Assembly: GCA_013420905.1 (NCBI GenBank)
Contig: JAAXNY010000023.1
Location: forward strand, 1-64,000
Origin: Collybia mongolica
Lineage: Eukaryota; Basidiomycota; Agaricomycetes; Agaricales; Clitocybaceae
Reading direction: 5' to 3'
DNA length: 64,000 bases
The notes beneath the pieces were generated by a model. The model saw only the letters and a list, made by a program, of their open reading frames with translations, searched no databases and had not been told where the DNA came from. Position numbers and translations under genes: made by a program. This document shows positions 1-25,589 of this stretch, piece by piece (within the stretch, counting starts at the first letter, position 1; each line of letters opens with the position of its first letter).

Positions 1-2613
1 CACTTCTTTGAGCCTTTAATGTCCAACGCTTTCTTTCGAAATCCTGCAACCGCAGCTGGTAGAAATTCTCAGCGGCGGGCGACCATTGATCACCGTAAAG
101 TCCCGACGACTTCCAAATCAGGTGCTTGGGCCACCACGACGCATGAGTGACGGTGCCTTTGTTGGTAGCGTCGGGGATGTGGTAAACGCCGCTAACAATG
201 TCTAGAATCTCCTCGCTGATACCGTCATCAAGGAAGTACTTGTCGCCATGCTGTGCAACCTGATCGCATGAGGAAGGTCCATCAAGCACAGTGGAATCTG
301 AGACGTGGCCAGACGCGAGTCTCCAACGATTCCACCAAGCATTCTCAGGACGCGACCCCTGGACGTGAGAAAACGTTCTCTCGCAAGTAGGTAAGCGTTG
401 TAGTCGTTGTCATCCGGCTGATAGGTAATTGTGCGAAAGCCGAGTCCTGTCGACTTAGACCTCCAGAGATTTCGGTGGCAATGTATCCGTCTCGATGACG
501 GTACGAAAGGGAATAGCCAATTCCAGCAGGCCACGCGATCTCGATTTGTCGCCCAGCCCCTGCGGTATACCAAGAGAACTGCTGTTGCGCTCCACAGAGC
601 AACATACCAAGGGGATGGATCGTCCGACTTGGCAGGCGGACGGAGAATGTAGACCGTCGAAGCGTCCTGATCAATGCGCTGGAGCCTAACCCTGGAGAGG
701 TCGCAGATGAAACTGGGAGCTTCTATTTACGGCTTATGTCCCAGGACGGCGGCAGTTGGCGATAGCTCAATGTATAGTTCCCCGATGTGTTGTAAAGTCG
801 ACGAGCGCCCTTAAGGCCAGTGGCGGGAGCGCTTCTTGAGAATACAGAAGGAATTTAAGGACCTCCAAGTGCTTCTCTCGCTGCTGGGCATATTTTCCGC
901 CATGAACCTGCGGGTTCCAACTGGATCCTTGCAGTAACAGGTCGAAGCCGTGTCTTCTGCGGAGGTACTCGACCACGCTCAAAATGGAGAGCGTGTAAGG
1001 CATCGGAGGAGCAGCTTCCGCCGCAGGCTTGAACATTGCATCGCGAACGTCTTTCGACTGTGCTGGGAGGGGTGCAACAGGAATGTCGTTCGACTGCTCG
1101 GGTAATCTTAGAACGGGATGTCTTTCAAATGTTCCGGAAATGGGGGTGGTATTATATCATCGTAGTCGTCGTCGTAACCATAGGGATCACGGTTTATCCC
1201 ATATTTCTCGGGGTGTTTTCTCCTGGTGGGGGAGGCAGATGATGAACGAGATCCCATTCGTTACAGTATGACAATAGAATCTACCCCACGCGTGTGTGTC
1301 CATGAATTCGAAATCCGCCTCTGCTTCGTCACAATTGTCCGGCGATAAACGGTGGGTCTTCTTCGTCTTTCTCCCAAACATAAACCGTGGATGTCTTACT
1401 CGGCCCGCTCTTGGTGGCATAAGCTTCCCGGGACTCGCGACTCTGCTTCTCTGTAGGAGTCTCCACCTGAATCCGATGTTGTTGGGCTTTCTCTTTCCGT
1501 GCTTTGAAAGTTTCCCAGTCCTCTCCGGGCTTCTGACCCGACAGGTGGATTGACGATCATCCTTCGATCAACAGGTGGAGGAGGAAGCTCCTCGTCATCC
1601 CATCGAGCGTTCCCACGCATAAGGTCAGATGGATCGTCGGGCAAGGTGATTGGGGCACCGGAACTAGGGATGGATGATATGGTGCCTTCGAACTTATATG
1701 TTCTTCTAGTGGGAAGCACGATAGAGTCGTACTGAGCTACTCGTCGTTGCGCAATCTCAAGTGTAATCATCAGGTGGGTAGAATTCTACAAGCATATGAG
1801 CGTCCTGAGCCTGAATGTCCTTAACACCATGTCCCCATATGAACCATATCGGTACGCTGGCGCGGCAGAAATAAACCAGGTACGGACCCCATCTGGTTGC
1901 GTACGGATCAAGGAATGCGCCGGGTCGCAAACCCGGCGACAGATCACCAACGACGGACTCCTGGAGAGATGGAGCCACGATCGAGATATGGGATCCAGGG
2001 CGCGGGTGGCGAGTCTAACAAACGCGTTTTGAAAGCAATTATCCTCGAATTCTCCCAACCATAGAGACAGCGCGAATGTAGTGCAGGCGGACATGACTCT
2101 AAATGCCCATATCGCTCGTCTGGCGCATACAATGGTTAACTCCTGTGTTTGATGAACATCGCGATAGCCTTGCTGCATAGGCCAAAGGGGCCAAGAGATC
2201 TTCGGGAACAAGTGGGCTTTTGGATGTTTTGCCATCAGGTAGAAGATAACGTCATGTAATGAATCCTCCAGAGCAATCCATCGATTCATGAAACCTTGTT
2301 CCAGCACAAAGGACGAGTGTGTGCCAGGGACATGAATGGCGGCCTTCTTAAGCTCGGAAGGCGTGACAGCCAAAACCGAAAATATTGGCCCGTGGTGAAT
2401 GGCCTTTTTCGGGTAATACGCCATGTATATCTCAGAATCTGAGAGAAAACACGTCGCGTTTGGGTCACCTTTAGGTTGGCGTGGGGAAGGCGATGAAGTG
2501 TGGATGGGGAGGGTACGACTATATGGCGAGACTACGAGCCCTGATTGATTATGCCACATGAGGTGGCGGTGGACTTCTGGCAGTCGGCGTCGCTCGAAGC
2601 TCCGATCGTTCAT
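1..2613 (-). pseudogene. Decayed SWWPK-family protein gene, cut by the window edge
   Basis: Minus-strand coding sequence runs from an ATG at 2613 (reading MNDRSFERRRLP) to the left edge, but changes frame several times. The first block (to about 1980) contains PKISWPLWPMQQGYRDVHQ. The next block reads SVVGDLSPGLRPGAFLDPY then VPIWFIWGHGVKDIQAQD. Later blocks read GEDWETFKARKEKAQQHR, RDPYGYDDDYDDIIPPPFPE and a final block with VAQHGDKYFLDDGISEEILD and THASWWPKHLIWKSSGLYG. Order and content match a very abundant family of uncharacterised Agaricomycete proteins whose C-terminal part carries a DGISDEDLDxVxGVY...SWWPK signature; I know no assigned function. Changes near 1970, 1765, 1540, 1300 and 1110 do not all fall at GT-AG junctions, so I read frameshift decay, although some could be introns. 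The gene abuts repeat arm S1, and its 5' end is duplicated beyond arm S2 at 15598. Confidence 0.6.
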
Positions 2614-2737
2614 ATTGTAACGTATCGTCGATCTACTGTACAAATGGGCCGCAATATAGACTAAATACGTGCTGAGTGTAATGAAGCCGATTGCTACGGA
2701 TTGCCTGACAGGCGCGACGAAGTACAGCTAAGCAAGA

Positions 2738-4480
2738 GGCAATGGAAAACTGATGGAGACTGTCAGCGATGCACGGCAGGACAATCATCACGGACGTACG
2801 GAGCTCCAACTGACCCGAAACCTTTTCTATGAACGACCGAAGATCTCCAGGGGCAGTCTAACGGAAGAGCACAAGGTAACTCTTGAAACGTTACGCGAGT
2901 ACGATCGTGTTCAGAGGGCCGCAAGCACAGGTGAGGCGTCGAGGAGGAAGGAGTAGTGTCAGGAGCAAACCCCGCAACTCTACTGTAGAACGAAGAGAGA
3001 AGATGGTATTGGGAGCAGGCCCCGCAACACCAAGTGGATCGTTGTTGAGGTCGTCGTGGTGTGGTGAAAGGTCGGTGGGGATGGGGTGGAAAGGAAGAAG
3101 TGACGAAAACGCGCCCAAAGAACAATTCAACAGTCAGGTGACAACTTATCGCCGAGATCACCGAGTCTGGAACACCGGCGGTCTATCGGTTCAATTATCG
3201 GACTCGTCACTTGTTCCGCAACCTGTTCCGCTCCCACCACTACACAACGTACGGGGTCTGCTCCTGCGTCTGTCTTACACCCCTCGGATTACTACAGCGT
3301 ACGGGGTCTGCTCCTGCGCCTGTATCTCTTGTCGCCCGATTCCTCCATCCAAACTCGACACCCGAGGTTCGTCGAACCTCGCCGTTCTCGTGCATCGGGG
3401 CCCACTCCAGCCCACACAAACTCCTGCGCCTACTCAAAAACTCAACTTCGCCTGTAAAGGGAGACATACTCACACCATATGACAAGGTTCATTAACTGAG
3501 CGTCGTCTCGCTCATGCTGACCCACTCTATCACGTAGGTTCTATATACAATCCCCACCGCGTATTTACGACACGACAAACGCCTGAACACCGCCTGAACG
3601 GCCTGGATACTGGGGTACTCCTTCGGACTGCAGGTGAAACAAGGTTTGTTGGTTCTCATCCTCGCATCTCATTTTTTAGGCAGGTACACTTGAGGTTCGT
3701 CGAACATCATGTTCCCGCCTCCCCGTGGTTGGCATCGGATCTTCGCCAAAAAGACACTTGGAGATGTGGCTTACTCTTGCTGCTTTTAGGGTAAGATGAA
3801 CTTATATGGTCAGTGCCTCTTTCTGCGAGATCATCGCCATCTCAGTACTGACACATTTCTCTCGTAAAGTCCTGTATACCTGAGGTTCCTCGAACCTCGC
3901 CTTTCTCGTTTGAACCGGGTCTGATCCCCGCCGGCACTTTCTCAAGTCTACCGATCAAGTCGCCATCTTCTACATCCCAAATATTCAAAGAACCCAAACT
4001 ACAAGGCCTTGAAACATCAAGCCGTCGAGTCTCAGCGCTCACCCCCTCCTGGAACAGAAACCTCCCCACCCCCCCAATCCCACCCCTGCCGATACGCAAC
4101 GTACGGAGTTTCCTCCTGCGTTTTTTTTCTCCACTTTGAATGGAGGCCGCGTACGGCGGTTTCTCCTGCGCCTTCCTTCCTCCAACTCAGATGTCCGAAT
4201 GCCTGACCACCGTCATAAACGACTTGATTAACGGCGTACGTACACCCGAGGTTCGTCGAACCTCCCTGTGTCTCTAGCTTGCACTTACTCACTCTAACAG
4301 AATGCTCGAAACTACTTTGATGGTACCTACGACCGCGTGCTGCCTGGCATAACTCCAGAAATCCGGCCTGAGGTAGAACAAGTTGCAAAACATAAAGTCG
4401 TAGTTGTGATTAGGTACAGGGCAGGGTGGTTAGGTACATGGGCAGGCTAGTAAATTCGTAACGATGGAATAGATATCCTA
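2738..4480. repeat. Long inverted-repeat arm S1
   Basis: This non-coding block recurs reverse-complemented at about 14180-15430 (S2) and 18180-20360 (S3). The part at 2860-3500 is nearly identical to 14720-15330; 3500-4480 is matched with small indels. It contains three pairs of the 21-bp box (starts near 2958/3008, 3248/3298 and 4100/4150) and dyads at 3364, 3692, 3882 and 4248. Similarity to S2 continues leftwards into the SWWPK pseudogene, whereas S3 stops matching near 20358. No convincing protein gene lies here. Confidence 0.8.
2958..4170. promoter_or_regulatory. Three box pairs with 50-bp spacing in S1
   Basis: Each pair is two copies of a motif near GCAGGAGCAGACCCCGTACG (on the plus strand here often as its complement, CGTACGGGGTCTGCTCCTGC). 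Starts are about 2958 and 3008 (GCAAC-ending variant), 3248 and 3298, and 4100 and 4150. The centre-to-centre distance is 50 bp in all three pairs, close to five helical turns. The same arrangement recurs in S2 and S3. I infer paired protein-binding sites; the protein is unknown. Confidence 0.6.
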
Positions 4481-4492
4481 TTGATGCGGGTC

Positions 4493-7400
4493 CTACATAG
4501 ACTCACGCTGTTTTTCCTTACGCTTCGTCAACTTTCCGAAGGGGTTCTTGGATTTCGTAGTCGCGGGAGGAGGGCTCAATGGTTGGTTGTCTACAAGGCG
4601 GCGGCCAAATTGGCTAGGACGGCGCATCGCCGGAACATCTAAACGTCCGTAGTCAAATGAATGCACCGTTTTCTCGAAGAGGGTCTTACTGGAAGTAGAA
4701 CTAACACGCCTGTCCTCAGAAAATACATCGACAGACTGTTGGGATTCTCGTGATGGTTTGGATGGTCCCACATCAAATCGGGGGCCTGTAGAATGAACAA
4801 GATGCTATTCAGTTAACAAGACACGGCACATATCACGGACGAGACACACCCGACGATGGCGGTACTGAGTTCGAAGACGAACTTGCAAGAGATGGGGCTT
4901 CATCCGAGCGTCCAGCCGAAGTCATGCTGCGTATCCATCCAGCGGGCCTTACCCATTTTTTCATGCGCATAGCTGCTGGTTGGACCATCTGGCGTTCCGG
5001 CGGGACGTGCGCTTCACGGTATTTCCCAGTGAAGCCTTCGTGCTGGTTAGAGGCGCTCGACATCTCTTCATCGTCTTCTCCTACTGTGCGCTTCGTGATG
5101 CGCAGACGCTTCTTTTCCTTGCGAACCTCAGGGCTATCTGTCGTGGGGTTGAGTAAACAGCAATTTAAGTTGGGATATTTGAACTCACCGGGTTGAACGC
5201 TGCGTCCCCGTCGAGTTCCTTTTGGGTTTGGGTTATAGTTATGAGGCTCTGTTGTGGGCGGGACCGAGAAATCGGAGTTCATCAAGAAACCAAGGTCAGG
5301 AGACGATGCTACAGGTATGTTCCGAGATCAATAGGATGCGAAAAATGAAACGATTACAGTTTACATTGTAGTAACTCCGTGCGCGGCTCAGGAGTCTCAC
5401 AATTTATGTGCTCGGGTCTGGGAACATTGCCGCCCACATCGGCAGGAGCGCCATATACGGGGGAAGTACTCTGAGGGAGATGACCGTCGTCGTTGGGAGC
5501 AAGAGACATAGCGTCACTGGCTTCGCCAAGATCGTTGCCATCGCTGATGCCTTCTTCGTCAGTAGTTGGAGCCACGGCGTCACCATCACTGATACCAAGG
5601 TCGTCTCCGTCGCTAGTACCAAGGGCCTCACCCTCACTGGTGCCGAGAGCTTCGCCATCGCTGGTACCACACAGATCGTCTCCAATACTTGCAGTGCCGT
5701 CGTCAGCAGCGAGCGCCGTCCCGGACTTCGATCCGTCAATGTCCATGGGGTCTCCTTCCGGTCGCTCGTCGACATCCATCGCATGACTGTTCTGGGCCTT
5801 TGGTCCATCATTCACCTTTTTATCAAGGACCATATCGTCTTCCTCAGCCCCCACTGTCTCTTTGACGAATTTTGCAGTGGCCTTCTTAGCCGCCCTCACT
5901 TCTGCCTTTTGAGCCTTCTCCGCCCCCTTCTCCGCCTTTCGAGCCTTCTCCGCCTCTTTCTCTGCAATGCGTCCTCCCTTTTCCGCCTTCCGCTCCATTT
6001 TTTGCCTTTCCTTTGCCTCTTTATCCGCCGCCTTTCTTTGCTCCTTCTCCTCCTGCTTCTTTGACCTTTCGAGCTTCTTCCGTTCTCTCTCCGCTTCCTT
6101 CCGTGCAGCTGTTTCGGCTTTCTTTTGATGCCGCTTCGTGTCTAGAGCCTCGGGGTCATCGTCGTCGACATCATCCTGGGGATCCGCTAAGGATTTCCCC
6201 GAGAACAGGTCATACATCTCTGAACAACTTGTCAAAATCTGTCAAGAGGAGTCAAGTGATACGACACACCTTCGCCCTTTTTCTTATCGAGAAACGCGTC
6301 CATCAAGTATTTTTTCCCGCGCGCTAGAGAAGACAAGACGATGTCCGCTGTATCAGCCGCGAGGAGGGTGTAGGTAACCACGGTCTTCTTTTGGGGTTGT
6401 CGGAGCGCTCTGCCGAGAATCTGGTGTTCTTCCTGAGCGCTCCAGGGCTGGTCCTATGAAGGAGATTAACACGTCGAAACATCGAATACCAGCTGCAGGA
6501 CTCACAAGAAAAATAATCACTGTGGCAACAGTGAGATTCAAGCCCGTAGAACCAACCGCCGATATGATCAAGACGCGATACGTAGGGTCTTCACAAAATT
6601 TCTTCACAATCCTCGCGCGCTGATTAAATGCCGTTTGCCCATCAATATACAGGAATCTGATCCCATACAGGGATAAGATCTAGGCGCAATCAGCACTGGA
6701 AAAAGGACGACCGTTACGAGACGCTCACATTTCTAAGGAGCGGGCCAAGGCTGGGGTACTCCTGATAGATTAGAATCCTGCGTAAGAAAGTCGCAACTTC
6801 GCCGGTTGGAAGAGGTGGAAGAGTCGGGAAGCGCATCTGACCATTTTCAACAAGGGGTCGAGGCGCATCGTCGCGAGACAGGAGGTACTGGCAGAGCCGG
6901 GCGCAAGTATCAATTTTTGTGGATTTTACCTTCTCCCATGCTGCGAGACTCCCAAATCTGGGAGGAGGCACTGAGATATCCAAGCGCGCAAAGCCCATAG
7001 CCATGCGGTGTTCAATATAAAAACTCCTTGAAACTATTGTTAAAAGGCCGTTGGAAGATGAAACACTGTGAACCATCTGTCAATACAGTGTACAACGGAA
7101 ATTTTCTCAACAACATCACCTCTCCTTCACTTTGTCCGCGAGTTCGGAGATGACCTCCATTTCGCGCGCCGTCAGATTTAGAATCACCAGATTTTCTTCG
7201 TGAGGTGGGAGTGGTACAAGACACTGTTTCTTCCAATCAAGGCTCTCTTTGGTACGCCTAAGAATGCGCCCTTGGAATTGGCGTTGCATGCGCTGCGCAA
7301 TGTCCACCACAGCAGAATCGATTTCTACCGGCCCATCGACAGAGTCGTCTCCCCTTGAGCGTCGTATGACCGTTGCGTCCGACTTCTCTTCAGCTAGAGC

Positions 7401-9608
7401 ATCTTCGCTGAAGAAATGGGGTATTCCGACCAATCTCCCCATGCTGGCGACGTCCTAAGTGGTCGCCGTTAGTATGTGGTACACATATTCTGACAATACT
7501 AGGTTTACCTTCGTCGATGTCTGAAGAGGTGTTCCTGTCATTATTTGACGGAAAACAGCCTGCTTCGACAGTGAGAGCGCAGCGCTGCCCTTAGTCCCCA
7601 CGTTGCGAAAGCCATGGGCTTCATCAATTGTCACCGATAAATATTGCCTCCCATAGAGTGTGCTGCCGACAAGCAGCTTATACGAAGGAAGAGGAGTGGG
7701 ATCTTCCCAAGGGAGTTTCTCCGATGATGGCTTCGCATAAATCAACGAATAATCTTGCAGGAGTGACTAATAGCTGTGGTTAGTAGTCGAAGAAAGACGA
7801 CAATTAATCAGGCCTACCGAGTGTGATGCGAGTATGATAACGTTTCTGAGCTTGTGTTTCGACTTGGAAAAATCTCCCTCAGGGCCCCAGAACGCCTCAT
7901 GTTGGGCTTTTCCGGTGCCATATAATAAAATATCAAATGAACCCCCTCTAAATAGGGTTCTCACCTCGACCTCCCATTGAGACAGGAGCGTCCCGGGAAC
8001 AAGAAACAAATGTGGGAGATCGGGTATTTCCCGTTTGTCTCCCAAGAATGGGTTTTTTTCTGGAGATGAAGTTTCGTCAAACTTTGCGAGGAGCAGGTGG
8101 GCGAGGCAGGAACTAACCGAAAAAAGGGGGAAGCTCCTTTCCTACTGCTTGGCGCACTACACATTCAGCCAGAATAGCAACTGCCGTGATGGCTTGAAAA
8201 GTCTTGCCAAGCCCGACATCATCAGCAACTAACACTCCCGTACATGCGCCAACAGCTGGAACTGGCTTGAAGACCATTCGAAACATGGCATGAACTCCAG
8301 CTTTTTGGTGCCAGTGGAGCTCTATGGGAACCATGTCTGGATTGTTCCGTGCTCGTTCAGGAGCAAATTCAGCAGCATGGGTGGGATCCCATGAGGTAAG
8401 TCCCCCACAGTGACGATAGCGATTGAAGACTACAGGAAGACCATCGAGAAAGCCAAGATTGTGCTCCAGATCAGCAGGAGACAACCCCATCTCAACCTCA
8501 ACGCCAGGATCAGAACCGTCGATAGCTTCCCCAAATCGATATGAGAAGGCCGGCTGTTGGCCTTGCAGCTCGACATTATCGTCGCGGCCAAAAGAATCGA
8601 AAAACTCTCTATAGAGAGAGAGGACGTCTGCGACGTCTTGTTCGGAAGCCAGAGTTTGCAGCGCAGCATGGGTGACTTTGGTTAGTTCTTGAATAGAGTC
8701 AGCTATGATCCGCTCAAGAAATATCAGAACGCTTACTCTTCTTTGCTTTTGCAACTTTCAGAACCTTCGCATCCAGGACAGCACCCAGCCCAGCCATAAG
8801 CTGCGTGAGTTCGGCTTCTATACAACTCACTCTCTCCAGGGCTTGTTCCATTTGAAGAGACTCCGCAGCGGCCTTCCAGCGACTGACTTTGAGAATAACA
8901 CTCGAAATCTGGCGCTTCGTAGGCGTGTCCTTACTGAGGCCTAGAGGGGTTGAGTAACGGCTCGAAATAAAAATCAAAGTCGGACATACCATCGAATGCG
9001 TCCATAGCGCCTTTCTCTAAAGCAACGAGGCGCTTAGAGGTGCGCTGTAGTTGGTTGTAGATGTTGATCCATGTGCGTTGCATGAGTGCGAGCGTCGGTG
9101 AGCGCAGCCCTGTACGGAGGAGACCAAGGGAATTACAAGCCTCTTCGCCAAAGAGAGACCTCGCAACGTCGTCCACTGCAAGCGGTAAATATGTGGAGTT
9201 ATGTGGGACATCGTCCAATCCACTCCCATCGCTGAGCGCAAGAGTCAATGGGTGCAGGTTTTTGACCTTGAGGATCTCTGTGATTTCGGCGTGAATTTTC
9301 CTCTTCTGCCACAACTCCGTGACCCAGTTCCGCCACAAATCGCGCCCAGCGACACGGATGGAACCACGCCTGGAACTCGAGAACTTAATCCTCTCATCCT
9401 CGGTGCGCAATTTCTGGTACTGGTCGAAGTAGAGTCCGATGAGGTTTGCGGTTTCTCGTGTCCAGCCCTCGGGAAGGAGGGAATCGTCATCCGGAAACAG
9501 CCCATGCTTCACACCAGTGATTCGCTGCCAGCAAGGGTATCCCCAGGGCGCGCCATCGTGCATGACGTACAGCTGGGTGAGTGCGCTGTGAACCATATGG
9601 CTAGGCAT
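4493..9608 (-). CDS. SNF2-family helicase/ATPase, multi-exon
   Basis: About 13 exons give a protein of roughly 1,500 residues. Exons read in this order: 9608-8990, 8940-8737, 8702-8118, 8059-7818, 7766-7509, 7454 to about 7120, about 7076-6729, 6679-6506, 6453-6270, 6219-5365, 5308-5189, 5137-4850 and 4785-4493. The ATPase core is complete: Walker A DDVGLGKTFQ, motif Ia HLFLVPGTLLSQWEVEV, DEAH box in VTIDEAHGFRN, motif III MTGTPLQTS, then YIDGQTAFNQRARIV, ISAVGSTGLNLT and the helicase-C motif DQPWSAQEEHQILGRALRQP. The C-terminus has a long Lys/Glu coiled coil, GTSDGEAL-type acidic repeats and a basic tail. SNF2 proteins translocate on DNA and remodel protein-DNA complexes in the nucleus. The start is the first ATG (MPSHMVHSALTQ); the longer open frame begins only with TTG. 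The splice between exons 6 and 7 is uncertain. A deleted copy lies at 17573-18075. Confidence 0.85.
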
Positions 9609-9702
9609 GTTTCGAGCTAAGTGGGTGAGCGATGTCGAGGTTTGGAAAGGCAAGTAGGGAGGTGCAAATACTACGAGAAGGCGAATGACGAATATCCTTT
9701 CA

Positions 9703-9721
9703 CCCTCACTCTTTTATAGAG
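9703..9721 (-). promoter_or_regulatory. TATA box of the helicase gene
   Basis: On the minus strand the sequence CTCTATAAAAGAGTGAGGG lies about 100 bp upstream of the ATG at 9608. The deleted copy of the gene keeps the same element as CTGTATAAAAAGGTGAGGG near 17462-17480, so the promoter has been retained in the derivative. This supports a Pol II start close to 9680. Confidence 0.6.
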
Positions 9722-9939
9722 AAAAGAAAATTGCAATAATACTGTGTATAGTGAAAAGAGTCTACACGAAAAATACCAGTTACACTATCAGAATGCAGCC
9801 AAGAGAAAACTCAAGCCTCAAAGAAACTCCAACGGACAAATGTGACGTTCAAGGAGGTGGTGTTAACACCTGGACCCACGTTTCAGAAGGCAAAATGAGA
9901 GTAGCGGCGGATGCAGTATACCTCATTCGAGACTCTTGG

Positions 9940-10203
9940 TTATTCATTCTTCATGGACATATGGAAGATTTCGAGACCAACTAACTAGAAGGAAATAATC
10001 AGATATCCATAAGAAGGAAAGCAAAAGAAACTTACGTAGAGTTGAGGAAACGGCCCGTGGAGCTTAAGAATAGAATTCATATGTTTACTCCAATAACTAG
10101 GAAGCATATCATAAGACAAAACTGACGGGGATTTAGGAACGCAAGCAGGACACTCACTGGTAAGGTGACCAGATGTATCTGGAGAAGTCGTTAGGCTAGA
10201 CAT
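9940..10203 (-). CDS. Small conserved reading frame between the two element genes
   Basis: An open frame spans 10036-10266 and can join 9940-9984 through a clean intron (GTAAGT donor, TTCTAG acceptor), ending FPQLY-LVGLEIFHMSMKNE. The first ATG is at 10203, giving about 70 residues; without an ATG the frame is open further upstream, so this may be a later exon. It contains SECPACVPKSPSVLSYDM, with a CPAC pair that might bind metal. The same frame recurs at 16916-17215 in the deleted copy with only a few changes, one a frameshift. No function is recognised. Conservation could reflect simple DNA duplication rather than selection on a protein. Confidence 0.35.
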
Positions 10204-10266
10204 TTGCTCAAGTGCATTTATCGAAGCCGTATGCGCATGCAAAAGATGTATGGCGGCATCAAGCAA

Positions 10267-11354
10267 GTCACCAAGGTCACAGACGCAGGAGAGCTCCCCG
10301 TACGTTGTTAAACCAAACCAGACTCAGGAGTAACCCCCGTAAGTCGATCTAAGGCAAGTGGCTACGGTTTTTGCGAAAGTGGAGCAGCTCAGACGCAATG
10401 AAGACGGTAAGAATGGAGAGAGGAATTTTTTTTGTTAATTGTTTGTTGACCGTATTATTCTTTATTTGTTTGGATAGCTGGTGCACGTTTCAAACTCCAC
10501 ACTTCTCCAACGTCGCGTCCTTCGCACTGGGGACTCTTAGTGGAGACTGAGGCTGCACCTGCGTACGGGGTTTGCTCCTACGCGGGATACTGCAACATGT
10601 GGGGTTTGCTCCTGTGTATGCATTTGGGATGTCATTCTCGTTGATGACAATCGTCCCTCCCAAGCACGCATTTTCTTGGCCAGTAAGTCAGTACCTCATC
10701 TTGCGGAGATTCACTTCTAATTTTGTAGTAAATTAAACCCCTTTTCTGTGTTAGATTTGACGCGCTCCATTACAACAGACCTCCGCGCGAGGTTCGACGA
10801 ACCACGGATTATCATTGGACCGTTCCCTTCCAGACTCCTCTGTCAATTCCATATCAGGGTCCCCGATGTCTCATTACCGTCCGCAGTCCCGTATCAAGGG
10901 TTGTTGTACAGACAAACCGGGATGCTATGCTCAATTATCCCGTTTCCGCGATAGTCTCAACCTACTCCATCCGGGATAGCAGACTTCTGTACGAAGTTTG
11001 ACAAACTCCAAAAAATCGGTAAGCCACTCTATTCCTTTCTGATACCTTTATCCCAGAAACACCCAGGTCTTATCACATTCATTTTTCTGCAAACAGGGTT
11101 GCTGCACGGACGCACCACAGTGCGATTTTTTCTCCATTTCTTCCTGGTCTCGACCCGCTCTACCCATGACATCGGACTTCCGCATGAGGTTCAATGAAAC
11201 ACGCCACATTGTAAGTCGCACCTTGCTTGGAATACCCCTCAGTTGATCTTAGAGTCTCGCAGATATCAATTGATCCGCCCGTAGTCCAATAATGAGCGAT
11301 TTTGCGCCAGAGATACTCCCCAGTCCCCTTAATTAGAAATAAGCATTCTAATAG
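10267..11354. other. Divergent intergenic region of the element
   Basis: Lies between the leftward helicase unit and the rightward 855-residue gene. It carries single or loosely paired copies of the 21-bp box near 10296, 10562 and 10596 (34 bp apart rather than 50) and a dyad at 10789-10805. Pieces of it, notably 10745-10815 and 10817-10915, reappear shuffled at 16083-16310. No protein gene is visible. Confidence 0.5.
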
Positions 11355-11362
11355 TATAAATA
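11355..11362 (+). promoter_or_regulatory. TATA box of the 855-residue gene
   Basis: TATAAATA occurs about 63-70 bp upstream of the ATG at 11425, within AT-rich sequence. This position suits a fungal core promoter. The match is short, so the call rests on position. Confidence 0.45.
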
Positions 11363-11424
11363 TGTCCTAATATATGTGAATATGGCTATACCTAAACCTC
11401 ACCCTTACACTTATCGTATACACA

Positions 11425-14090
11425 ATGCCCATGCATCACGGCAATTATCCCCTTCAATATACGTCTCTCCGCCGCTTCTGCCAGACATCGAAAGAACTTC
11501 TCGGAACCAACCATCGAGACTTCGTGAAGTTCACCCTTGAAGGTGTGCATGAGAATAGGCAACACGTCGTTGATCTCTCACTTAATGTGATGGAATTTGA
11601 CGAACCTTTTGATGCAATGAGAGACTTTGACTCTCTCCTAGGGCTTTCAGATCGAATTATGGTGCATGATGCTATCACCGTGTTTCCGGTTGCAAAGCAG
11701 GAGAAGACGTTATCGACCGATATACACCTTGTATATGAATTTGAGAGTAGTAAAGTGAGTGTTTTACATGTAGTAGTTTGGCGTGCTAACCGTAATTCTC
11801 AGGGATTGTTCCGTGCTCCCGTGCATAAAATCCCCAATGCATGCTTGGCAACTTGGAACACGCACAATGTAATATATGTACTCCTTCCCGAGCTTTACGC
11901 AAAAGATCGAAGCTCGTACCTAACGCAAGAGGAATACCGAATTCTCTATGAGGATGGGTTACGCCCTGCAATTGAGAATTTGTCACCGGAGACAGTGGCG
12001 GAATGGCCTGCAAAGTATGCGGATGAAATGTTTAGGGCTCGCAGGCGCAACGGACAGTTAGCGTTCACGAGTAAGATGCTCGCCCAGTGGCATGTTCGTT
12101 ACCTGGGGGATCGTATCCGTGCTGCGCTCACACATAAGGGAAGCACCTGGGCTACGGGACTGATATTTCTACACCAAATCCGTGGTGTAAAGCATTCGAC
12201 ACTTCACCGCACCGAAATAGCAGCCGCCGAGGAGGCTTTCGAACATTTCCTTCAACAAAACCGCCTCTCCTACAACTCGATTAGCAGGCATGGCACCTGG
12301 TATGTGGACGTCGGTGTCGAGCTGGGCTCACCGCGGGGTAATTGCCTAGCCTGGCGAACCGATTCGCACTGTGACATGGTACAGGAGTCGTGTGAGGTGA
12401 CCGAGCGAGAAGCAAGAAGTATCACGCGTTTAGGAAGTTCAAAGTATGCGCGAGACATAGTGTCCCATCTTCCTGCTGTCTCGGGATGCCGGATCACCAC
12501 TGGGAGGGCGCATGGCCCTCATGACATTCCTTACCTACAGCTATACACTACCGACAAGGCCCTCACCTATCACCCGGATCGAAGAAGTTTCGGAAAATCC
12601 ATAACCGCTGAGGAACTCCTTAAGGACAAGGGTACAACGTATATTGAAAGCCTCTGTACTTTGTACAACAACGCCATCAGAACGAGCGAGGGCCATGCCC
12701 GAATCGAACTCAGGGTGTCGATTTTTTCTGCAACAAAGGTGCTCGTTAATCTCGATGAACGTTTACTACGAACATGCCTCGTCTCAATTGACCGGTCTAT
12801 TTGGTGGTAAGTACTGTAATTGGGTGATAATATAATCTATTACTTATTCTTAATAGGACACTTCGCAGCTGCAGAGCCTTAGCGCTCAAATTTCTTGTTG
12901 AGTGGCAGATGCAAGGTGTCCCAGCATTTCGAGCGAACCCGTCCGCCCTAGTTCTCACAGCGGCAGCCGCGTGGCTACTAAATAGCCTACACTCTGCGCC
13001 CGATAAGGGACAGTCATCGCGGGAACTAATGGCCGCGGTATTACCGCACGTTGACCGTGTTGGCGCAGATCACAACATCCTTGCATACGGTACACCATTA
13101 GACGACGAAGACTACGAATCGGAAGCCTCCACGGACTCCGGCTCGGACAACGATCGTGTACCGCGTGAAAGATCCCGACGCGATGCAACCACGTTACCAG
13201 CCTTTCCTTACGGGATCATCTTCCTTTCAAATCTTCGCATTGGAGAAGAGTACCCTGTTCCGCGTTTGACGAAAGACCCACGCCATACGCTGAGCGATCG
13301 TGCATTTCGCTATTTCTTCAACTCCACCCCTGAGGAACTGTCGGAAATGCTCCTTCAGGCTGGGGTAGTTCTGCGCAAGCACCCCAATCGAGTGGCGAAC
13401 CGGACGCGGATAACCCCATCGTACTATAATTGGGGTCAGAACCCAGATCGAAACATATTCGACCTGGCGGGAAAAGGCGCGAGCCTTCCAGTTCGCCCTC
13501 GAGACTTGGGCTCGGACAACGAGCAGGAGGAAAGCGCGGGAACTAGCCATGATTCGGATGGCGATGATAACACCAACATCGACAAATTCATCACTAAATT
13601 GTGGTACCAATTCCTTATCGACATCATGGAAGTCGGCCCAAACAAGAGAAGGGCTCACATGCCTGCATATATAAAGCTCAATCAGGTTGAACGCAAGATG
13701 GTTAACGAGGAGACGTACCGCAATAGGAATCTAGAAGAACTTTTCACTGAGTTTCAATGGCGACTGGCGGACGACAAAGCGTGGAAGGTTAATTTCGACA
13801 AGCTCTTCCCCGTGAAGGGCCATACTCGAGCAGGAGCGATCCAGAACTACCGGAGAGCGAAGTATTACCCCAGATGGGAGGACTTTAAGGCGAGGGCGAA
13901 CCATCAATCTTACACCATGGTCCGCAAGGAGCTTTGGAAGCGCTTTCGTAAACTCTACTGGATGCCCAAGGCCGAAGAAGACCGGATCTGGTGGACGAAA
14001 TACGATTCTCAGATGCAGCACTCCAAGGGCGACCATGTCAATACACCCGCCCCGCGCATTCTAGTTTACAGCCCCTGGCCTGCACTGTAG
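11425..14090 (+). CDS. Large conserved protein of unknown function, partner of the helicase
   Basis: Three exons, 11425-11754, 11803-12806 and 12857-14090, keep one frame and encode 855 residues; if the first intron (48 nt, multiple of three) is retained, 871. The N-terminal half reads VVDLSLNVMEFDEPFDAM, ITVFPVAKQEKTLSTDIHLV and HKIPNACLATWNTHNVIYVL; the middle has LSPETVAEWPAKYADEMFRA. After about residue 500 there is an acidic serine-rich linker (DDEDYESEASTDSGSDND), and the C-terminal 150 residues are basic and tryptophan-rich (EDFKARANHQSYTMVRKELW). No catalytic motif, zinc finger or membrane segment is evident. I recognise similar large proteins in many Agaricomycete genomes, all uncharacterised. 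Its place opposite the helicase, inside inverted repeats, suggests an element-encoded DNA-processing or structural protein, which is inference. The frame is intact. Fragments of the gene lie at 15790-16235. Confidence 0.75.
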
Positions 14091-14179
14091 GTACTTCTTG
14101 TATTCGTATTAGCATCCGCTTTTTCTACGCATTAATATGTTTTAAATATACTATGACACCTCGTTTTGCTCGATTGCAA

Positions 14180-15430
14180 GATCTGCAATAAGACGAACCG
14201 GCACAAAGTACAATGATAATAGCATGGTACAGGACGAATCGAAGGAATACATTCGCAGGAGGAATCCCGGTACGCTGCCTCTGCTCGAAAATAAAGGGAG
14301 AAAAGCAGGAGGAAACTCCGTACGTTGGGTATCGGCTGGAGTGGGATTGGGGACTGAAAGGTTCCTATTCCAAAGGGGAGTGAGCCCTCGACGGCTCAAT
14401 GTTCCAAGTCTGATGTACTGGTTGATATACGTGGCTTTTCGGCGGGGGTCAGATGTCAGCCATGGAGGGGCGGAAACATGTTGTTCGACGAACCTCGCGT
14501 ATACGTGCCTAAAGAAACGAGTTAGCATTGGTCCGAGGATGCGTTGATGGGGCTGAGGATCAACGAGCCTCGTTGTGCCTTCAGGTCAAATGAGTACGTC
14601 GGGACTCAAGCCGTTTTCGCGGGTGGTCAGGCGGTTGTTGCGTCGTAGGTGCACGGTTGGGATTGTATATAGAACCTAAGTGATAGAGTGGGTCAGCATG
14701 AGCGAGACGATGCTCAGTTAATGAACCTTGTCATACGGTGTGAGTATGTCTCTCTTTACAGGCGAAGTTGAGTTTTTGAGTAGGCGCAGGAGTTTGTGTG
14801 GGCTGGAGTGGGCCCCGATGCACGAGAACGGCGAGGTTCGACGAACCTCGGGTGTCGAGTTTGGATGGAGGAATCGGGCGACAAGAGATACAGGCGCAGG
14901 AGCAGACCCCGTACGCTGTAGTAATCCGAGGGGTGTAAGACAGACGCAGGAGCAGACCCCGTACGTTGTGTAGTGGTGGGAGCGGAACAGGTTGCGGAAC
15001 AAGTGACGAGTCCGATAATTGAACCGATAGACCGCCGGTGTTCCAGACTCGGTGATCTCGGCGATAAGTTGTCACCTGACTGTTGAATTGTTCTTTGGGC
15101 GCGTTTTCGTCACTTCTTCCTTTCCACCCCATCCCCACCGACCTTTCACCACACCACGACGACCTCAACAACGATCCACTTGGTGTTGCGGGGCCTGCTC
15201 CCAATACCATCTTCTCTCTTCGTTCTACAGTAGAGTTGCGGGGTTTGCTCCTGACACTACTCCTTCCTCCTCGACGCCTCACCTGTGCTTGCGGCCCTCT
15301 GAACTCGGTCATACTCGCGTAACTTTTCAAGGGTTACCTAGCGCTCTTCCCTTGGACTGCCCCTGAGGATTCTCGGTCATTCATAGAAAAGGTTTCGGGT
15401 CAGTTGGAGCTCCGTACGTCCGTGACGATT
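14180..15430. repeat. Long inverted-repeat arm S2
   Basis: Reverse complement of S1 (2738-4480) with internal length differences, and parallel to S3. It begins just after the stop of the 855-residue gene. It holds box pairs starting at 14254/14304, 14895/14945 and about 15185/15235, each 50 bp apart, and a perfect dyad at 14833-14849. The sequence continues to the right into a truncated copy of the SWWPK gene, as S1 does on its own outer side. Confidence 0.8.
14254..15260. promoter_or_regulatory. Three box pairs with 50-bp spacing in S2
   Basis: Copies of the GCAGGAGCAGACCCCGTACG-type box start at 14254 and 14304, 14895 and 14945, and (GTTGCGGGG variant, opposite orientation) 15185 and 15235. 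Spacing is 50 bp in every pair although the sequence between copies differs from pair to pair. That points to selection for phase, as expected of protein-binding sites. Confidence 0.6.
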
Positions 15431-15597
15431 ATCCTGTCATGCATAGCTAACAGTCTCCCTCAGGTTTCCATTTATTTTTGCTTGGCTTCCCTTCGTCGTG
15501 CTCGCCAGTCGATTCGTAGCACCGGCTTCGTTACACTCAGCAAGTATCTAGTTCATATTGCGGCCCTTTGTACAATAAATCAACAATACGTTACAAT

Positions 15598-15790
15598 ATG
15601 AACGATCGGAACTTCGAGTGACACCGACTGCCATAAGTTCACTTGCCACGCCATGTAACACAATTAATTGGGGCTCATAGTCTCGCCATATAGTCGTAGC
15701 CTCCCTATTCATACTTCGTCGCCTTCCCCACGCAACCCTAAAGGTGATCCAAACGCGACATGTTGGTTGGTTCCGAGATATACACGGCGT
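15598..15790 (+). pseudogene. Truncated 5' end of the SWWPK-family gene
   Basis: The ATG and following bases match the start of the pseudogene at 2613 in inverted orientation, followed by an early TGA in frame. Similarity ends abruptly near 15790, where the sequence switches to a piece of the 855-residue gene. It is a dead fragment carried along with arm S2. Confidence 0.7.
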
Positions 15791-17572
15791 ATTATAAGAC
15801 GGCGGGAAGATGAGACACTAGGTCTCGCACATACTTTGCACTGTTCAAACGCGTGATATTTCTGGCTTCCCGCTCAGTCAACTATGTCACAGTGCGAATC
15901 GTTTCCCCAGGCTAGGCTATTACCCCATGGAGAGCCCAGCCCGACATCGAGGTCCACATACTAGGTGCCGTGCCTGCTAGTTGAGTCGTAGTAGAGGCGG
16001 TTTTGTTGAAAGGTAGCGAACATGCCACTGGGTAAGCATCTTACTTGTGAACGCTGATTGTCTGTTGCGCCTGCGAGCCCTAAACATCAGACCGTTCCCT
16101 TCCAGACTCCGTCAATTACATCCCAGGGTCCCCGATGTCTCATTACCGTCCCCAGTCCCGTACCAAGGGTCGTTGTACAGATGTACCGTCGTCGGAGACA
16201 GTGGCGGAATGGCCTGCGAAGTATGGGGATGAAATGATAATCCGTGGTTCGTCGAACCTCGCGCGGAGGTCTGCTGTAATAGAGCGCGACAAAACTAACA
16301 CGGAAACGGAGCTTTAACAGACATAGTAACATTCTGCTCGAATCATTGTACTTGCCATCAACGAGCGCATGGCCCTGAGGTCCATAATGAGTCTCACGAA
16401 GGAGGCCGGTGTGGAGACGATTCGGCGGGCGGTCTGTAAATCCGTGCCATTTACTACAGAATTAGAAGGGGCGTTTCGGCAAGATGAGGTACTGACTTAC
16501 TGGCCAAGATAATGCATGCTTGGGAGGGACGACTGTCATCAACGAGAATGACATCCCAAATGCATACACAGGAGCAAACCCCACATGTTGCACTATCCTG
16601 CGTAGGAGCAAACCCCGTACGCAGATGCGGGCCAGTTTACCACTAAGAGTCCTAGTGCGAAGGATGCAATATTGGAGAAGTGTGGAGTTCGAAACGCCGC
16701 ACCGGCTATCCAAACAAACAAGAATCATACGATCAACAAATAATTGACAAAAAAAATTCCTCTCCCCATTCTTACCGTCTTCATTGCGTCCGAGCTGCTC
16801 CACTTTCGCAAAAACTGTAGCCACTTGCCTTAGATCGACTTACGGGGGTTACTCCTGAGTCTGGTTTGGTTTAACAACGTACGGGGAGCTCTCCTGCGTC
16901 TGTGACCTTGGTGACTTGCTTGATGCCGCCATACATCTCTTGCATGCGCATACGGCTTCGATAAATACACTTGAACAAATGTCTAGCCTAACGACTTCTC
17001 CAGATACATCTGGTCACCTTACCAGTGAGTGTCCTGCTTGCGTTCCTAAATCCCCGTCAGTTTTGTCTTATGATATGCTTCCTAGTTATTGGAGTATCAT
17101 ACGAATTCCATTCTTAAGCTCCACGGGCCGTTTCCTCAACTCTACGTAAGTTTCTTTTGCTTTCCTTCTTATGGATATCTGATTATTTCCTTCTAGTTAG
17201 TTGGTCTCGAAATCTTCCATATGTTCCTGAAGCATAAACAACCAAGAGTCTCGAATGAGGTATACTGCATCCGCTGCTAATCTAATTTTGCCTTCTGAAA
17301 CATGGATCCAGGTGTTAATGCCGCCTCCTCAAACGTCATATTTGTCTGGTGGAGTTTTTTGGGGGGCTTGAGTTTTCTCTTGGCTACATTCCGTTATAGT
17401 GTAACTGATATTTTTCATGTAAACTCTTTCGGACTATATACAGTATTATTACGATCTCTTTTCTGTATAAAAAGGTGAGGGGTGAAAGGATATTCGTCAT
17501 TCACCTCGTAGTATTTGGACCTCCAGACTTGCCCCTCCGACCTCCACACCGCTCACTCACTTTGCTCAAAAT

Positions 17573-18075
17573 ATGCCTAGCCATATAGTTCACGGCACAC
17601 TCACCCAGCTGAACGTCATGCACGACGGCGCGCCCTGGGGATACCCTCGCTGGCAGCGTAATACTGGTGAGAAGCATGGGCTGTTTCCGGATGACGATTC
17701 CCTCCTTCCCGAGGGTTGGACACGAGAAACCGATCTCGCTGTTGCCACGGTAATTATTTTTCTTGTGAATTCTGCGGCCGGTATTTGATGTGCTAAGCTC
17801 CTTCGTAGGACCAACCCTGGGGTGCTCAGGAAGAACACCAGGTTATCGGCAGAGCGCTCCGACAACCCCAGGAAGAGACTGTCGTTACCTATACCTTCTT
17901 GGTGACGGATACAGCAGACATGGTTTTGTCTTCTCTAGTGCGTGAGAAGAAATCCTCGATGGACGCTTTCCTCGATAAAAGAAAGGGCAAAGGTGCGTCG
18001 TATCACTCGACTCCTCTTGTTCGATTATGACAAGTCGTTCAGAGATGTATGGCCTGCTCTCGGGAAAGTCTTAAG
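17573..18075 (+). pseudogene. Deleted helicase gene copy
   Basis: Starts with the same ATG and reads MPSHIVHGTLTQLNVMHDG and LFPDDDSLLPEGWTRET, then jumps to LAVATVIIFL, the end of the motif V exon. The following intron and the DQPWGAQEEHQVIGRALRQP exon are recognisable, then the sequence ends after the SEMYGLLSG region with further loss. All ATP-binding motifs are missing, so no helicase activity is possible. The upstream TATA box is intact. Confidence 0.75.
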
Positions 18076-18179
18076 TGGATCCTGAGGATGTTCCGGCAAG
18101 CCGTTTTGGCTGCCACCGCAGTAATATGATATCAATTCCATTGTTACGAGTTTACTAGTCTACCCATGTACTCAAACAC

Positions 18180-20360
18180 AACTATGACTTTTTGTTTCGC
18201 AACCTGTTCTATCTCAGGCCAGATTTCTGGAGTTTAGGGTCATGCCAGGTAGCGCGCGGTCATAGATATCATCAAACGGGATCGAGCATTCTATTAAAGT
18301 GAGTCAGTACAAGCTAGAGACACAGGGAGGTTCGACGAACCTCGCACGTATGTACGCGGTCAATCAAGCTGTTGTTTACGACGGTGATCAGGTATTTGGA
18401 CATCTGAGTTGGAGGAAGGAAGGCGCAGGAGAAACCGCCGTACGCGGCCTCCATTCAAAGTGGAGAAAAAAACGCAGGAGGAAACTCCGTACGTTGCGCA
18501 TTGGCTGGAGTGGGATTGCGGAGTGGGTAGTTTTTTATTCCAGGAGGGAGCCAAGGCCTTGTAAATTGGATTCTTTGAATATTTGGGATGTGGAAGGGGA
18601 CGAGTTGATCCTTGCGCAGTAGACTTGAGAGAGTGCCGGTGGGGATCAGACCCCGTTACACGAGAAAGGCGAGGTTCGAGGAACCTCGGGTATACAGGAC
18701 TTCACGAGGGGAACCGGGTCAGTACTGAGATGGCAATGATCTCGCAGGCAGAGGCACTGACCGTATAACTTGGTTTTGGCCTCAAATCGATGAGCACGCT
18801 ACGTCGTCAAGCGGCTTTTCGGCGAAGATCAGATGCCGGCCCTGTGTAAACGCTCGGGAAAGTTGAGGTTCGACGAACCTTGCCTGCTAGAAACAATGAT
18901 TCGTATGTTTGAGGCGAAGGACTATAAGCGCAGGAGAAATCCCCGTGCGCTGCGTCTGCTCGAATAAAGAAGAGAAACGTAGGAGGAAATTCCGTACGTT
19001 GGGTATCGGCTGGGGTGGGATTGTGAGTGGGGAGGTTCCTGTTCCAGAAGGGAGTGAGCGTCGCGACCCGACGGCTTGATGTTCCAAGCCTTATATACTG
19101 GTTTCTTTGAATATTTGGGATGTGGAAGATGGCAGGTTGATCCCTGCACAGTAGACTCCTAAGAGTGCCGGCGGGGATCAGACGCGATGAAAACGAGAAA
19201 GGCGAGGTTCGAGGAACCTCGGGTATACAGGATTCTACGAGAGAATTGCATTAGTACTGAGGTGGCGATTATTTCACGGACAGAGACACTGACCGTACAA
19301 CTTCGTTTGGCCCTGAAATCGGTTGAGAGTACGCTTCGTCAAGTGGCTTTTCGGCGGGGGTCAAATGTCAGCTATGGAGGGGCGGAAACATGATGTTCGA
19401 CGAACCTCGCGTATACGCGCCTAAAGAAACGAGTTAGCATTGGTCCGAGGATGCGTTGGTGGGGTTGAGGTTGAGGATCAACGAACCTCGTTGTGCCTTC
19501 AGGTCAAACGTGTACGTCGGCACTCAAGCCGTTTTCGCGGGTGGTCAGGCGGTTGTTGCGTCGTAGGTGCGCGGGAGGGATTGTATATAAAATCTACACG
19601 AAAGAATTGGTCAAAGTGAGCAGGAAGACACTCTTTTGACGAACTTTGTCCATCTGAGGTAAGTTCCTTTTGACAGGCCACGTTGAAGTTTTGAGTAGGC
19701 GCAGGAGTTTGCGTGGGCTAGAGTGGGCCCCGATGCACGAGAACGGCGAGGTTCGACGAACCTCGGGTGTCGAGTTTGGATGGAGGAATCGGGCGACAAG
19801 AGATACAGGCGCAGGAGCAGACCCCGTACGCTGTAGTAATCCGAGGGGTGTAAGACAGACGCAGGAGCAGACCCCGTACGTTGTGTAGTGGTGGGAGCGG
19901 AACAGGTTGCGGAACAAGTGACGAGTCCGATAATTGAACCGATAGACCGCCGGTGTTCCAGACTCGGTGATCTCGGCGATAAGTTGTCACCTGACTGTTG
20001 AATTGTTCTTTGGGCGCGTTCTCGTCACTTCTTCCCTTCCACCCTCATCCCCACCAACCTTTCACCACACCACAACGGCTTCATCAACGATCCACCTGGT
20101 GTTGCGGGGCCTGCTCCCAATACCACCTTCTCTCATCGTTCTATAGTAGAGTTACGGGGTTTGCTCCTGACACTACTCCTTCTTTCTCGACGCCTCACCT
20201 GTGCTTGCGGCCCTCTGAACTCGGTCATACTCGCGTAACTTTTCGAGAGTCACCTAGCGTCCTTCTGTTGGACTGTCTCTGGGGTCAGTCGAAGCTCCGT
20301 GCGTCCGCGACGATGGTCCTCTCGTGCATCGCTAACGGTCTCCGTCAGGTTTCCATTCCT
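18180..20360. repeat. Third repeat arm S3
   Basis: Same orientation as S2. It is longer than S2 because it keeps segments around 18540-18800 and 19090-19330 that S2 lacks but S1 has in part. Box pairs start at 18424/18473, 18929/18978, 19810/19860 and 20101/20151; dyads are at 18327, 18671, 18865, 19204 and 19748. Similarity to the other arms stops near 20358, after CAGGTTTCCATT, a possible outer end of the unit. Confidence 0.75.
18424..20175. promoter_or_regulatory. Four box pairs with 49-50-bp spacing in S3
   Basis: Pairs of the 21-bp box at 18424/18473, 18929/18978, 19810/19860 and 20101/20151. Two pairs are 49 bp apart and two are 50 bp apart. Copies inside a pair differ from one another at several positions, for example CAGGAGAAACCGCCGTACG against CAGGAGGAAACTCCGTACG, while spacing is held. 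Confidence 0.6.
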
Positions 20361-21353
20361 TGGCTGCTCTTCGTCCCGGTGGTCAGCGTCCCCCTGCCGC
20401 TCTAACTTCTCTCATTGTGCTTCGCAGAGCGCTTTACTTTGTAATTGTAACTTCCACGTCTGTCCGTAAGTCGTCTCATTCTTCTCGTAGCGTGTACAAG
20501 CTAAATTGTTCTCAGCCGATCTACTACACCATTTGACGATAATCCGCAAGATTCAAGGATCGCTCTTAATTCCAAAAACCCACATCCGTTCCCGCCCCAC
20601 ATACTATCTACTTACTTCCCCTCCCCAGTTTCGTGATAGCCATTCGGTCACCATCGCTGCAAAATAAAAATAAATTGTCGTTCCCATTTAGAAACTCGTG
20701 AACATAATTAGAACTTCATCTCTATAACATAGATATGGTGTTGTGTCTTTTCGAAAGTCATCGCACCCCTGTCAACATCGTGGCTAGTGATGCCCAGGAG
20801 ATGAGTTGACGATTACGGGATTTCAGTTTATGAAGTCCGAAGAACGCCGCGCACAGCACTGACGAACAGGAACCCTCGTGGCAGGTGGTGTGGATATTGT
20901 GAGCCGGAAGTAAGGGATAGCAGTGAGAAGTCGGCAGCGGAATGCCAGTACGCGACGTTCGGAAACTTTGTGCACGGAAGCCATAAAGGGAGGGATTGAG
21001 GGTGTTTCTGTCCCGGGGGAGAGGGTTACTCGATGCGATGTGTAAAAGATTCCGCGGAGAGATATACTGCAGGTATTGGGGATGTCATATCTCACACGAA
21101 GGTTTGGCGGCTTAATCTAAAAGAAGGCATTTTTCCTCAGCATATAGCTCACTTGAAGATCTCTATTTGCTAAGGTGACTACTCCGTCTTTCTTAACCCT
21201 AACCACCATATTACAGTGAGTCCCTAACTTTCGAATAGCTTCTGTTTTTTTTTTCGCACACGACGCAACCTCTGCTAACAAACTTTATACTTCACTTCAA
21301 GCGGTCTTATAATTCAATCAACCTCACTCTCTTGTCCCACCACCACCACTTCC
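20361..21353. other. Unannotated spacer
   Basis: No homology to the element arms and no convincing gene. A minus-strand frame at 20823-21095 has no recognisable domain. The last 60 bases are pyrimidine-rich (CCCACCACCACCACTTCC), a possible core promoter for the small gene that follows. Confidence 0.4.
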
Positions 21354-25530: not shown

Positions 25531-25589
25531 CTTCACAAGTAGATTATTAGTGACGTGTGAAAGGTTGCTAATCATTACAGCTAACCGGA

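Follow-up and report, generated by a model that had tools for sequence, protein, structure and literature searches.

A telomere-proximal repeat unit in Collybia mongolica pairs a SNF2-family ATPase with a protein whose core may be Rep_trans-like

Introduction

What kind of element is formed by two divergently transcribed genes that lie between inverted arms at the start of a fungal contig? The question is raised by the first 64,000 nucleotides of contig JAAXNY010000023.1 (C23 below; 123,089 bp) of Collybia mongolica (assembly GCA_013420905.1; 46 Mb in 26 contigs), the stretch that we call the window. Between arms at 2414-3591 and 14622-15794, it carries a gene for a SNF2-family ATPase and a gene for an 855-residue protein. 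A preliminary description had named this unit a candidate transposon. We find that it is a telomere-proximal unit with near-identical copies at several chromosome ends and that the core of the 855-residue protein probably resembles, in its modelled fold, the Rep_trans nickases. Since the rolling-circle-type DNA-nicking enzymes of bacteria are thought to be absent from eukaryotes, this likeness to a nicking enzyme matters. According to passages of a 2026 paper, Rep_trans nickases appeared restricted to bacteria, with archaeal relatives found by structure only (PMC13107129). In open-licence PMC full text, no description of the gene pair or of Rep_trans in eukaryotes was recognised, a weak absence, as subscription papers are outside that scope.

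Results

A two-gene unit repeated at chromosome ends

The three exons of the plus-strand gene (Table 1) reproduce the 855 residues exactly, and the ten exons of the minus-strand SNF2 gene, whose introns were placed by hand, give an open product of 1274 residues, the true C-terminus of which may lie further on than modelled. In Pfam, this product matches SNF2-rel_dom (E 2.5e-19), Helicase_C (E 4.4e-14) and also ERCC3_RAD25_C. The arms contain an ungapped core of 900 nt at 94% identity. The two divergent, apparently intact genes between inverted arms are thus confirmed; the limits first given, 2738-15430, were slightly too narrow, as the arms span 2414 to 15794. Self-comparison also recovered the deleted copy next door, which is inverted and lies at 15.8-20.4 kb. 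Most of both genes is gone from it, and most of the intergenic region, gene pieces and a third arm are kept: 9449-10733 of the unit matches 17732-16449 at 91%, and 6172-6537 matches 18090-17733 at 82%. The order from inside to outside is common subtelomere, deleted copy, unit and telomere.

Copy counts across the genome are lower bounds, because the search scores best candidates only. The arm has at least 32 matches, more than expected by chance, on C3, C4, C5, C15, C16, C23, C25 and C26, and every match listed is either no more than about 81 kb from a contig end or on a contig of less than 46 kb. For the last exon of the 855-residue protein gene, there are at least 11 matches (eight near-identical and three pieces, of which C8 has two and C1 one), and for one SNF2 exon at least 8 (seven near-identical and one on C8). 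All eight near-identical copies of the former gene, that of the window among them, keep an open frame up to one common stop, with 0-16 of 2668 bases changed relative to the window; the seven SNF2 copies show 0-5 mismatches over about 2993 bases. Complete units of equal spacing lie on C3 (two), C5, C23 and C26, with internal spacings of 5424, 4715 and 1791 bp that are constant within 3 bp among the units on C3 (twice), C5 and C26. On C15, the contig stops inside the outer arm of the unit, and C3, C4 and C25 hold more cut copies. Since the same arrangement recurs with the same internal spacings on C3, C5 and C26, it is not merely a local assembly duplication. Nor are the two genes single-copy, so that neither of these grounds for rejection named in the preliminary description applies.

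C3 and C5 start with CCCTAA repeats, which on C5 pass almost directly into the equivalent of window position 1310; the identity between C5:126-10000 and window 1310-11183 is 99.5%. For the outer flank (1-2400), there are at least six matches (C23, C26, C25, C3 twice, and C5 from 1310 on), each adjoining a unit copy. The inner flank (20380-23000) has at least 22, including sites near the ends of C9, C11, C13, C14 and C16 and the right end of C4, and no intact unit was found at these last-named sites. The unit therefore has the telomere on one side and a common subtelomeric element on the other, and it varies among chromosome ends.

Fold and conserved residues of the 855-residue protein

In our structural comparison, Rep_trans structures ranked 1-3 of 993 aligned chains with the model of the core and 1-2 of 994 with a longer model. 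Rep_trans proteins hold a metal through D46, D142 and E214, Y191 acts with R189, K193 and E196, and the patterns R140-x-D142-x-A144-x-D146 and R212-x-E214 are conserved; passages of a paper on MOBT relaxases give these the same active-site pattern (PMC6499999). We counted conservation in a 65-row alignment in P0036 numbering, gapped rows standing outside the counts. The metal-type positions are D67 (41/42), D303 (62/62) and E437 (63/63), with glycine or alanine at 305 in 62/62; Y379, Y383 and K387 are each present in 64/64, and R435 and R439 in 63/63. These residues lie on strands 60-73, 299-310, 379-384 and 434-441, apart from K387, which is on the helix that follows the strand of the tyrosine, and their order is that of Rep_trans. 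Their equivalents in the window protein are D69, D279, Y358, K362, R410 and E412. The structural alignments start at 60 to 39 and 58 to 0 (P0036) and at 50 to 39 (P0001); if the first block is ungapped, all three starts would put the first metal aspartate on the same conserved residue. Taking the models together, we consider it probable that the core has a Rep_trans-like fold, and a nickase activity, predicted from the fold and the conserved residues, seems rather likely. The fold prediction proposed in the preliminary description, aimed at a nuclease or recombinase, thus points towards a nuclease-type fold.

Several results weigh against this assignment. None of 13 hhalign runs against Rep_trans, with whole and trimmed alignments, was significant (P 0.14-0.82), and a six-frame search of the genome with PF02486 gave no matches, whereas the control matched in Bacillus subtilis. 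The conserved lysine stands at +4 from the tyrosine, compared with +2 in Rep_trans, so that aligning on the lysine places an invariant threonine, not the tyrosine, at the catalytic place. The R189 place is glutamine or asparagine, R140 and E196 are without clear counterpart, and the D146 place is glutamate in 49/62.

Foldseek against the PDB returned nothing at E<=0.001 for either model, the best rows being an adhesin, antibodies and phosphatases. Profile searches of PDB sequences gave best E values of 0.17 and 0.33, to a lipid-binding protein, and Pfam on 23 members of the family gave a best E of 0.016, to an unrelated family. Known transposase, HUH Rep and RecQ families found no support in Pfam, in line with the earlier view that no known DNA transposon machinery is present. 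One candidate seed for Rep_trans, a phage RstA-like protein, lacked a Pfam match and was discarded together with its 50 relatives.

Relatives and age of the gene pair

The 855-residue protein has 39 relatives in a first search and at least 64 listed in a profile search, the closest listed, from Collybia nuda, being 76% identical. Those that bear organism names all come from what we take to be mushroom-forming fungi. Within several species, the relatives are multi-copy and diverged; Tephrocybe rancida, Pluteus cervinus and Gymnopilus dilepis, for example, have three apiece. A lone contig-interior fragment at C1:891489-891704 is 34-39% identical to the C-terminal part of the protein and is perhaps another relic.

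The SNF2 protein has 18 relatives in mushroom-forming fungi, followed by distant SNF2 proteins. Six of the 18, judged by equal contig sizes in the match lists, are on the same contig as a relative of the 855-residue protein (Hypsizygus marmoreus, Lyophyllum shimeji, Phlegmacium glaucopus, Candolleomyces efflorescens, C. aberdarensis and Lyophyllum atratum), and three of these pairs have consecutive gene numbers (7097079/80, g6374/75 and g13406/07). For the remaining 12, no same-contig match was among the matches listed, these lists being incomplete. The L. shimeji relative of the 855-residue protein, on a contig of 3.15 Mb, carries tag 0100010; the tag by itself suggests the first gene at a scaffold end.

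In the interior of C8 (3.64 Mb), near 1.31 Mb, a relative of the 855-residue protein (40-46% identical) lies together with a SNF2 relative, whose gene is broken, with parts on opposite strands between repeat copies. The gene pair thus predates the present copies and has occupied more than one location. The inverted repeats there are copies of a repeat of about 270 bp that recurs several times in 22 kb; neither arms nor an exact palindrome of the kind described below were found in these 22 kb, which counts against arms and palindromes as regular parts of the system. Divergence of the two genes is correlated over six pairs including that of the window (r 0.75, reached by 6 of 720 permutations); adding Lyophyllum atratum, whose genes share a contig but need not be neighbours, lowers r to 0.29 (708 of 5040), so that joint descent is supported for part of the pairs only. 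Equal contig sizes and gene numbers show linkage in other species, and the association of the two genes long predates the present copies.

Palindromes and paired repeats in the arms

The arm cores, about 2900-3450 in S1 and 14770-15320 in S2, are identical over about 550 alignment columns, whereas the outer parts reach only 72-90% identity per 50 columns (10-28% differing); a 300-column stretch is identical across all three arms of the window. Such cores suggest recent homogenisation by gene conversion, or constraint. Against the former, the C5 copy of S1 departs from the window S1 at several core positions.

The core carries the palindrome GAGGTTCGACGAACCTC, which at up to 2 mismatches has 42 matches on both strands of the window (22 sites; 0.02 expected), all within 3364-23573 and in about a dozen flanking contexts that appeared unrelated by eye. 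The genome has 117 exact matches, and a reversed control gave none; 97 of the 100 places listed lie close to a contig end or on a small contig, the other three near 108 kb of C1. Of the 22 window sites, 21 were examined, and at 6 of them the palindrome is followed, 63-98 bp on, by two direct repeats, themselves about 50 bp apart; for these paired repeats, GCAGGAGSARACYCCGTACG, the window has 17 matches at up to 3 mismatches (0.01 expected). As described in passages of PMC13107129, RepDE binds a palindrome and makes its nick at a hairpin close by; for RepSNJ2, a comparable model was proposed. By analogy, the arm core is a candidate target, nothing more. Palindromes also occur at chromosome ends that carry no unit, and because such sites are many, a host factor is equally possible as the binder.

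Other features of the window

Table 1. Features of the unit and its surroundings, in window coordinates.
Feature	Position	Strand	Basis or remark
Outer flank	1..2413	.	At least 6 matches; adjoins other unit copies too
Arm S1, outer (telomere-side) inverted repeat	2414..3591	-	91.9% over 1179 columns with 15794-14622 (self-comparison)
SNF2-family ATPase gene, ten exons, 1274 aa	5354..9608	-	Gene model (exons from 9608 to 5354), Pfam, 18 Agaricomycete relatives
Intergenic region between divergent gene starts	9609..11424	.	Gene models; mostly kept in deleted copy
Variant palindrome in intergenic region	10789-10805	.	Palindrome search
855-residue protein gene	11425..14090	+	Exons 11425-11754, 11803-12806, 12857-14090; core proposed to be Rep_trans-like
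Arm S2, inner inverted repeat	14622..15794	+	Self-comparison and genome search
17-bp palindrome GAGGTTCGACGAACCTC in S2	14833..14849	+	Counterpart in S1 at 3364-3380; candidate protein-binding or nicking site
Direct-repeat pair GCAGGAGCAGACCCCGTACG, 50 bp apart, beside palindrome	14896..14965	+	S1 counterpart at 3248-3317
Paired direct repeats	3248-3317, 4100-4169, 14255-14324, 14896-14965, 18425-18493, 18930-18998, 19811-19880		
Inverted, internally deleted unit copy	15797..19433	-	Self-comparison
Third arm copy, terminating deleted copy	19540..20375	+	87% to S2 over 876 positions
Inner flank, common subtelomeric sequence	20380..23000	.	At least 22 matches, including ends without intact unit

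Just inside the subtelomeric block, 23693-24044 is a tandem array of a CCCTGCTCAT-rich unit. The 163 bp at 24061-24226 are 99% identical to a sequence that lies no more than 0.7 kb from the end of contig C16 and adjoin a two-copy telomere repeat, CCCTAACCCTAA, at 24215; this stretch is possibly an old chromosome-end junction. Exact CCCTAACCCTAA occurs in the window only there, outside the unit, and at up to 2 mismatches it has 6 matches against 3.95 expected. A sequence of about 460 bp at 25551-26007 is also found near the interior pair of C8 (87%) and at the C16 end (91%). Further inside, the open frames at 33583-34326 and 43262-43834 have a long near-identical stretch in common (HDDAQDGVGRRIETDAERGDDEERAPRGAEPGESYTAAHPHAHHAARPP), a further window repeat. 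Neither Rfam at the gathering threshold nor ARAGORN gave a match in the window.

Discussion

Based on these findings, we propose that the unit is a telomere-proximal repeat element with a Rep_trans-like tyrosine nickase and a SNF2 motor, spread between chromosome ends mainly by recombination or copying, an explanation to which we give even odds. The element would sit between common subtelomeric sequence and the telomere, with its two divergently transcribed genes long kept together. Going by the modelled fold and the conserved residues, the core of the 855-residue protein would be an endonuclease whose tyrosine Y358 attacks one DNA strand, a metal being held by D69, D279 and E412 with assistance from K362 and R410. 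More weakly, the arm sites with palindrome plus repeats may be where the protein acts, and the SNF2 ATPase, by moving along the DNA or remodelling it, may allow extension of the free 3' end. Copies would pass between chromosome ends mainly through homologous recombination or break-induced copying, as yeast Y' elements do, and nicks made by the 855-residue protein may provoke that process. The fixed spacing and shared flanks fit recombination between chromosome ends, by analogy with Y'. Movement of the unit by its own proteins, as the preliminary description had it, stays an inference, since recombination between ends can explain the copies and neither an empty site nor a target-site duplication was found.

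The strongest alternative, which we hold to be unlikely, is an ordinary host pair, a SNF2 remodeller with a partner, perhaps for telomere or chromatin upkeep, that is subtelomeric and passively amplified by end recombination, neither protein moving DNA. In its favour, every near-identical copy is terminal or on a small contig, and the copies have their flanks and their fixed spacing in common. Searched against the PDB, the profile of the SNF2 protein matches RAD5, fft3, INO80 and chains like them. Between C5 and the window, SNF2 coding positions differ less (5/3825; 3 silent, 2 not) than the rest (30/6044; Fisher p 0.003), a contrast to which gene conversion could contribute. Relatives of the pair are, however, multi-copy and diverged within several species; the second, diverged pair in the interior of C8 is broken, so that this is not an essential fixed locus; and the fold neighbours of the 855-residue protein are nickases.

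A bolder form of our proposal is a new eukaryotic class of telomere-dwelling mobile elements, in which the Rep_trans-type tyrosine nickase would be to eukaryotes what Rep_trans is to bacteria and Rep-Arvir to archaea and would nick palindrome-plus-repeat origins in the arms, the SNF2 motor would drive strand displacement, and nick-primed or circular copies would be added to chromosome ends. This we regard as doubtful.

Another possibility is a transcription-type module without a nickase, in which a TBP-like DNA-binding protein works with a SNF2-type ATPase, like the VETF heterodimer or TBP with Mot1. VETF pairs a TBP-like subunit with a SNF2-type ATPase; the best match of the 855-residue protein in a viral Foldseek library is a VETF-like large subunit (E 1.4e-4), more VETF-like and TFIID rows follow, and TBP ranks third in one structural comparison. 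The VETF row, however, has a probability of only 0.47 and a TM of 0.17, conservation falls on residues of a polar, charged and catalytic type, and the SNF2 relatives include no named viral protein, most of the distant rows being without names. Rep_trans relatives also give TBP-fold rows, and passages of PMC13107129 report that archaeal Rep-Arvir was found via viral TBP and inovirus Rep matches. We judge this module improbable.

A conventional cut-and-paste DNA transposon, bordered by long terminal inverted repeats and mobilised by an unrecognised transposase, would account for the two genes between inverted arms and for the internally deleted derivative. Its flanks beyond both arms are nevertheless common to the copies, so that no insertion point can be compared, neither target duplication nor empty site was seen, and the 22 kb around the diverged C8 pair are without arms. 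Pfam recognised no transposase family, and the fold rows leave unlisted families possible. What survives of the transposon first proposed is the repeated two-gene unit; the near-identical copies lie at contig or chromosome ends with shared flanks and are not scattered insertions, which makes cut-and-paste transposition very improbable. An assembly artefact or collapsed haplotypes, suggested by the position of the window at a contig start and by the small unplaced contigs C25 and C26, which could be alternative haplotypes or unresolved ends, is hardly credible given copies of the 855-residue protein gene that differ by up to 16 of 2668 bases, a telomere at C5 against longer distal sequence at C3, and a Collybia nuda relative at 76% identity.

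If the proposed element is real, a fungal, spliced family takes a Rep_trans-type replication initiator into eukaryotes, Helitrons gain a non-HUH parallel, and the spread of subtelomeric helicase repeats becomes a question about a definite enzyme, testable in culturable mushrooms.

Comparison with known systems

We file the unit with the subtelomeric helicase repeats, from which its pair of SNF2 and 855-residue protein genes sets it apart. Yeast Y' elements, as passages of PMC13177704 describe them, are telomere-proximal, vary in number between ends, lie outside a commoner subtelomeric element, encode a helicase-type protein and occur in near-identical copies. The mushroom unit is alike in position, copy number, helicase-type protein and near-identity of its copies; it differs by its SNF2 ATPase with a second conserved gene family and by its inverted arms, and no telomere-repeat arrays were seen between copies in the window. 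Agaricus bisporus var. burnettii and other fungi, according to passages of PMC7473861, have multi-copy telomere-linked RecQ helicase genes in their subtelomeres, patchy between strains. Multi-copy subtelomeric helicase genes are common to both, but the mushroom protein has SNF2-rel_dom, Helicase_C and ERCC3_RAD25_C, not RecQ, and is paired with the 855-residue family.

Rep_trans (PF02486) initiators, MOBT relaxases and archaeal Rep-Arvir are the nearest solved structures to the modelled core, with a similar D, D, Y, K, R-x-E order, and the RepDE and RepSNJ2 origins have palindromes near their nick sites as the mushroom arms have near the proposed ones. In contrast to Rep_trans, the mushroom protein is eukaryotic, spliced, about 855 residues long with a long C-terminal part, paired with a SNF2 ATPase and without a significant sequence match. 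VETF of large DNA viruses has a TBP-like fold row in common with it; the Foldseek similarity is only local (TM 0.17), and the 855-residue family has enzyme-like conserved residues. Helitrons join a HUH Rep to a Pif1-type helicase and have TC and CTRR ends with a 3' hairpin. If the fold is read correctly, a nicking-type protein and a DNA motor would be common to both, whereas the mushroom unit has two separate genes, a SNF2 rather than a Pif1-type motor, an 855-residue protein without a Pfam match, inverted arms and a location at chromosome ends.
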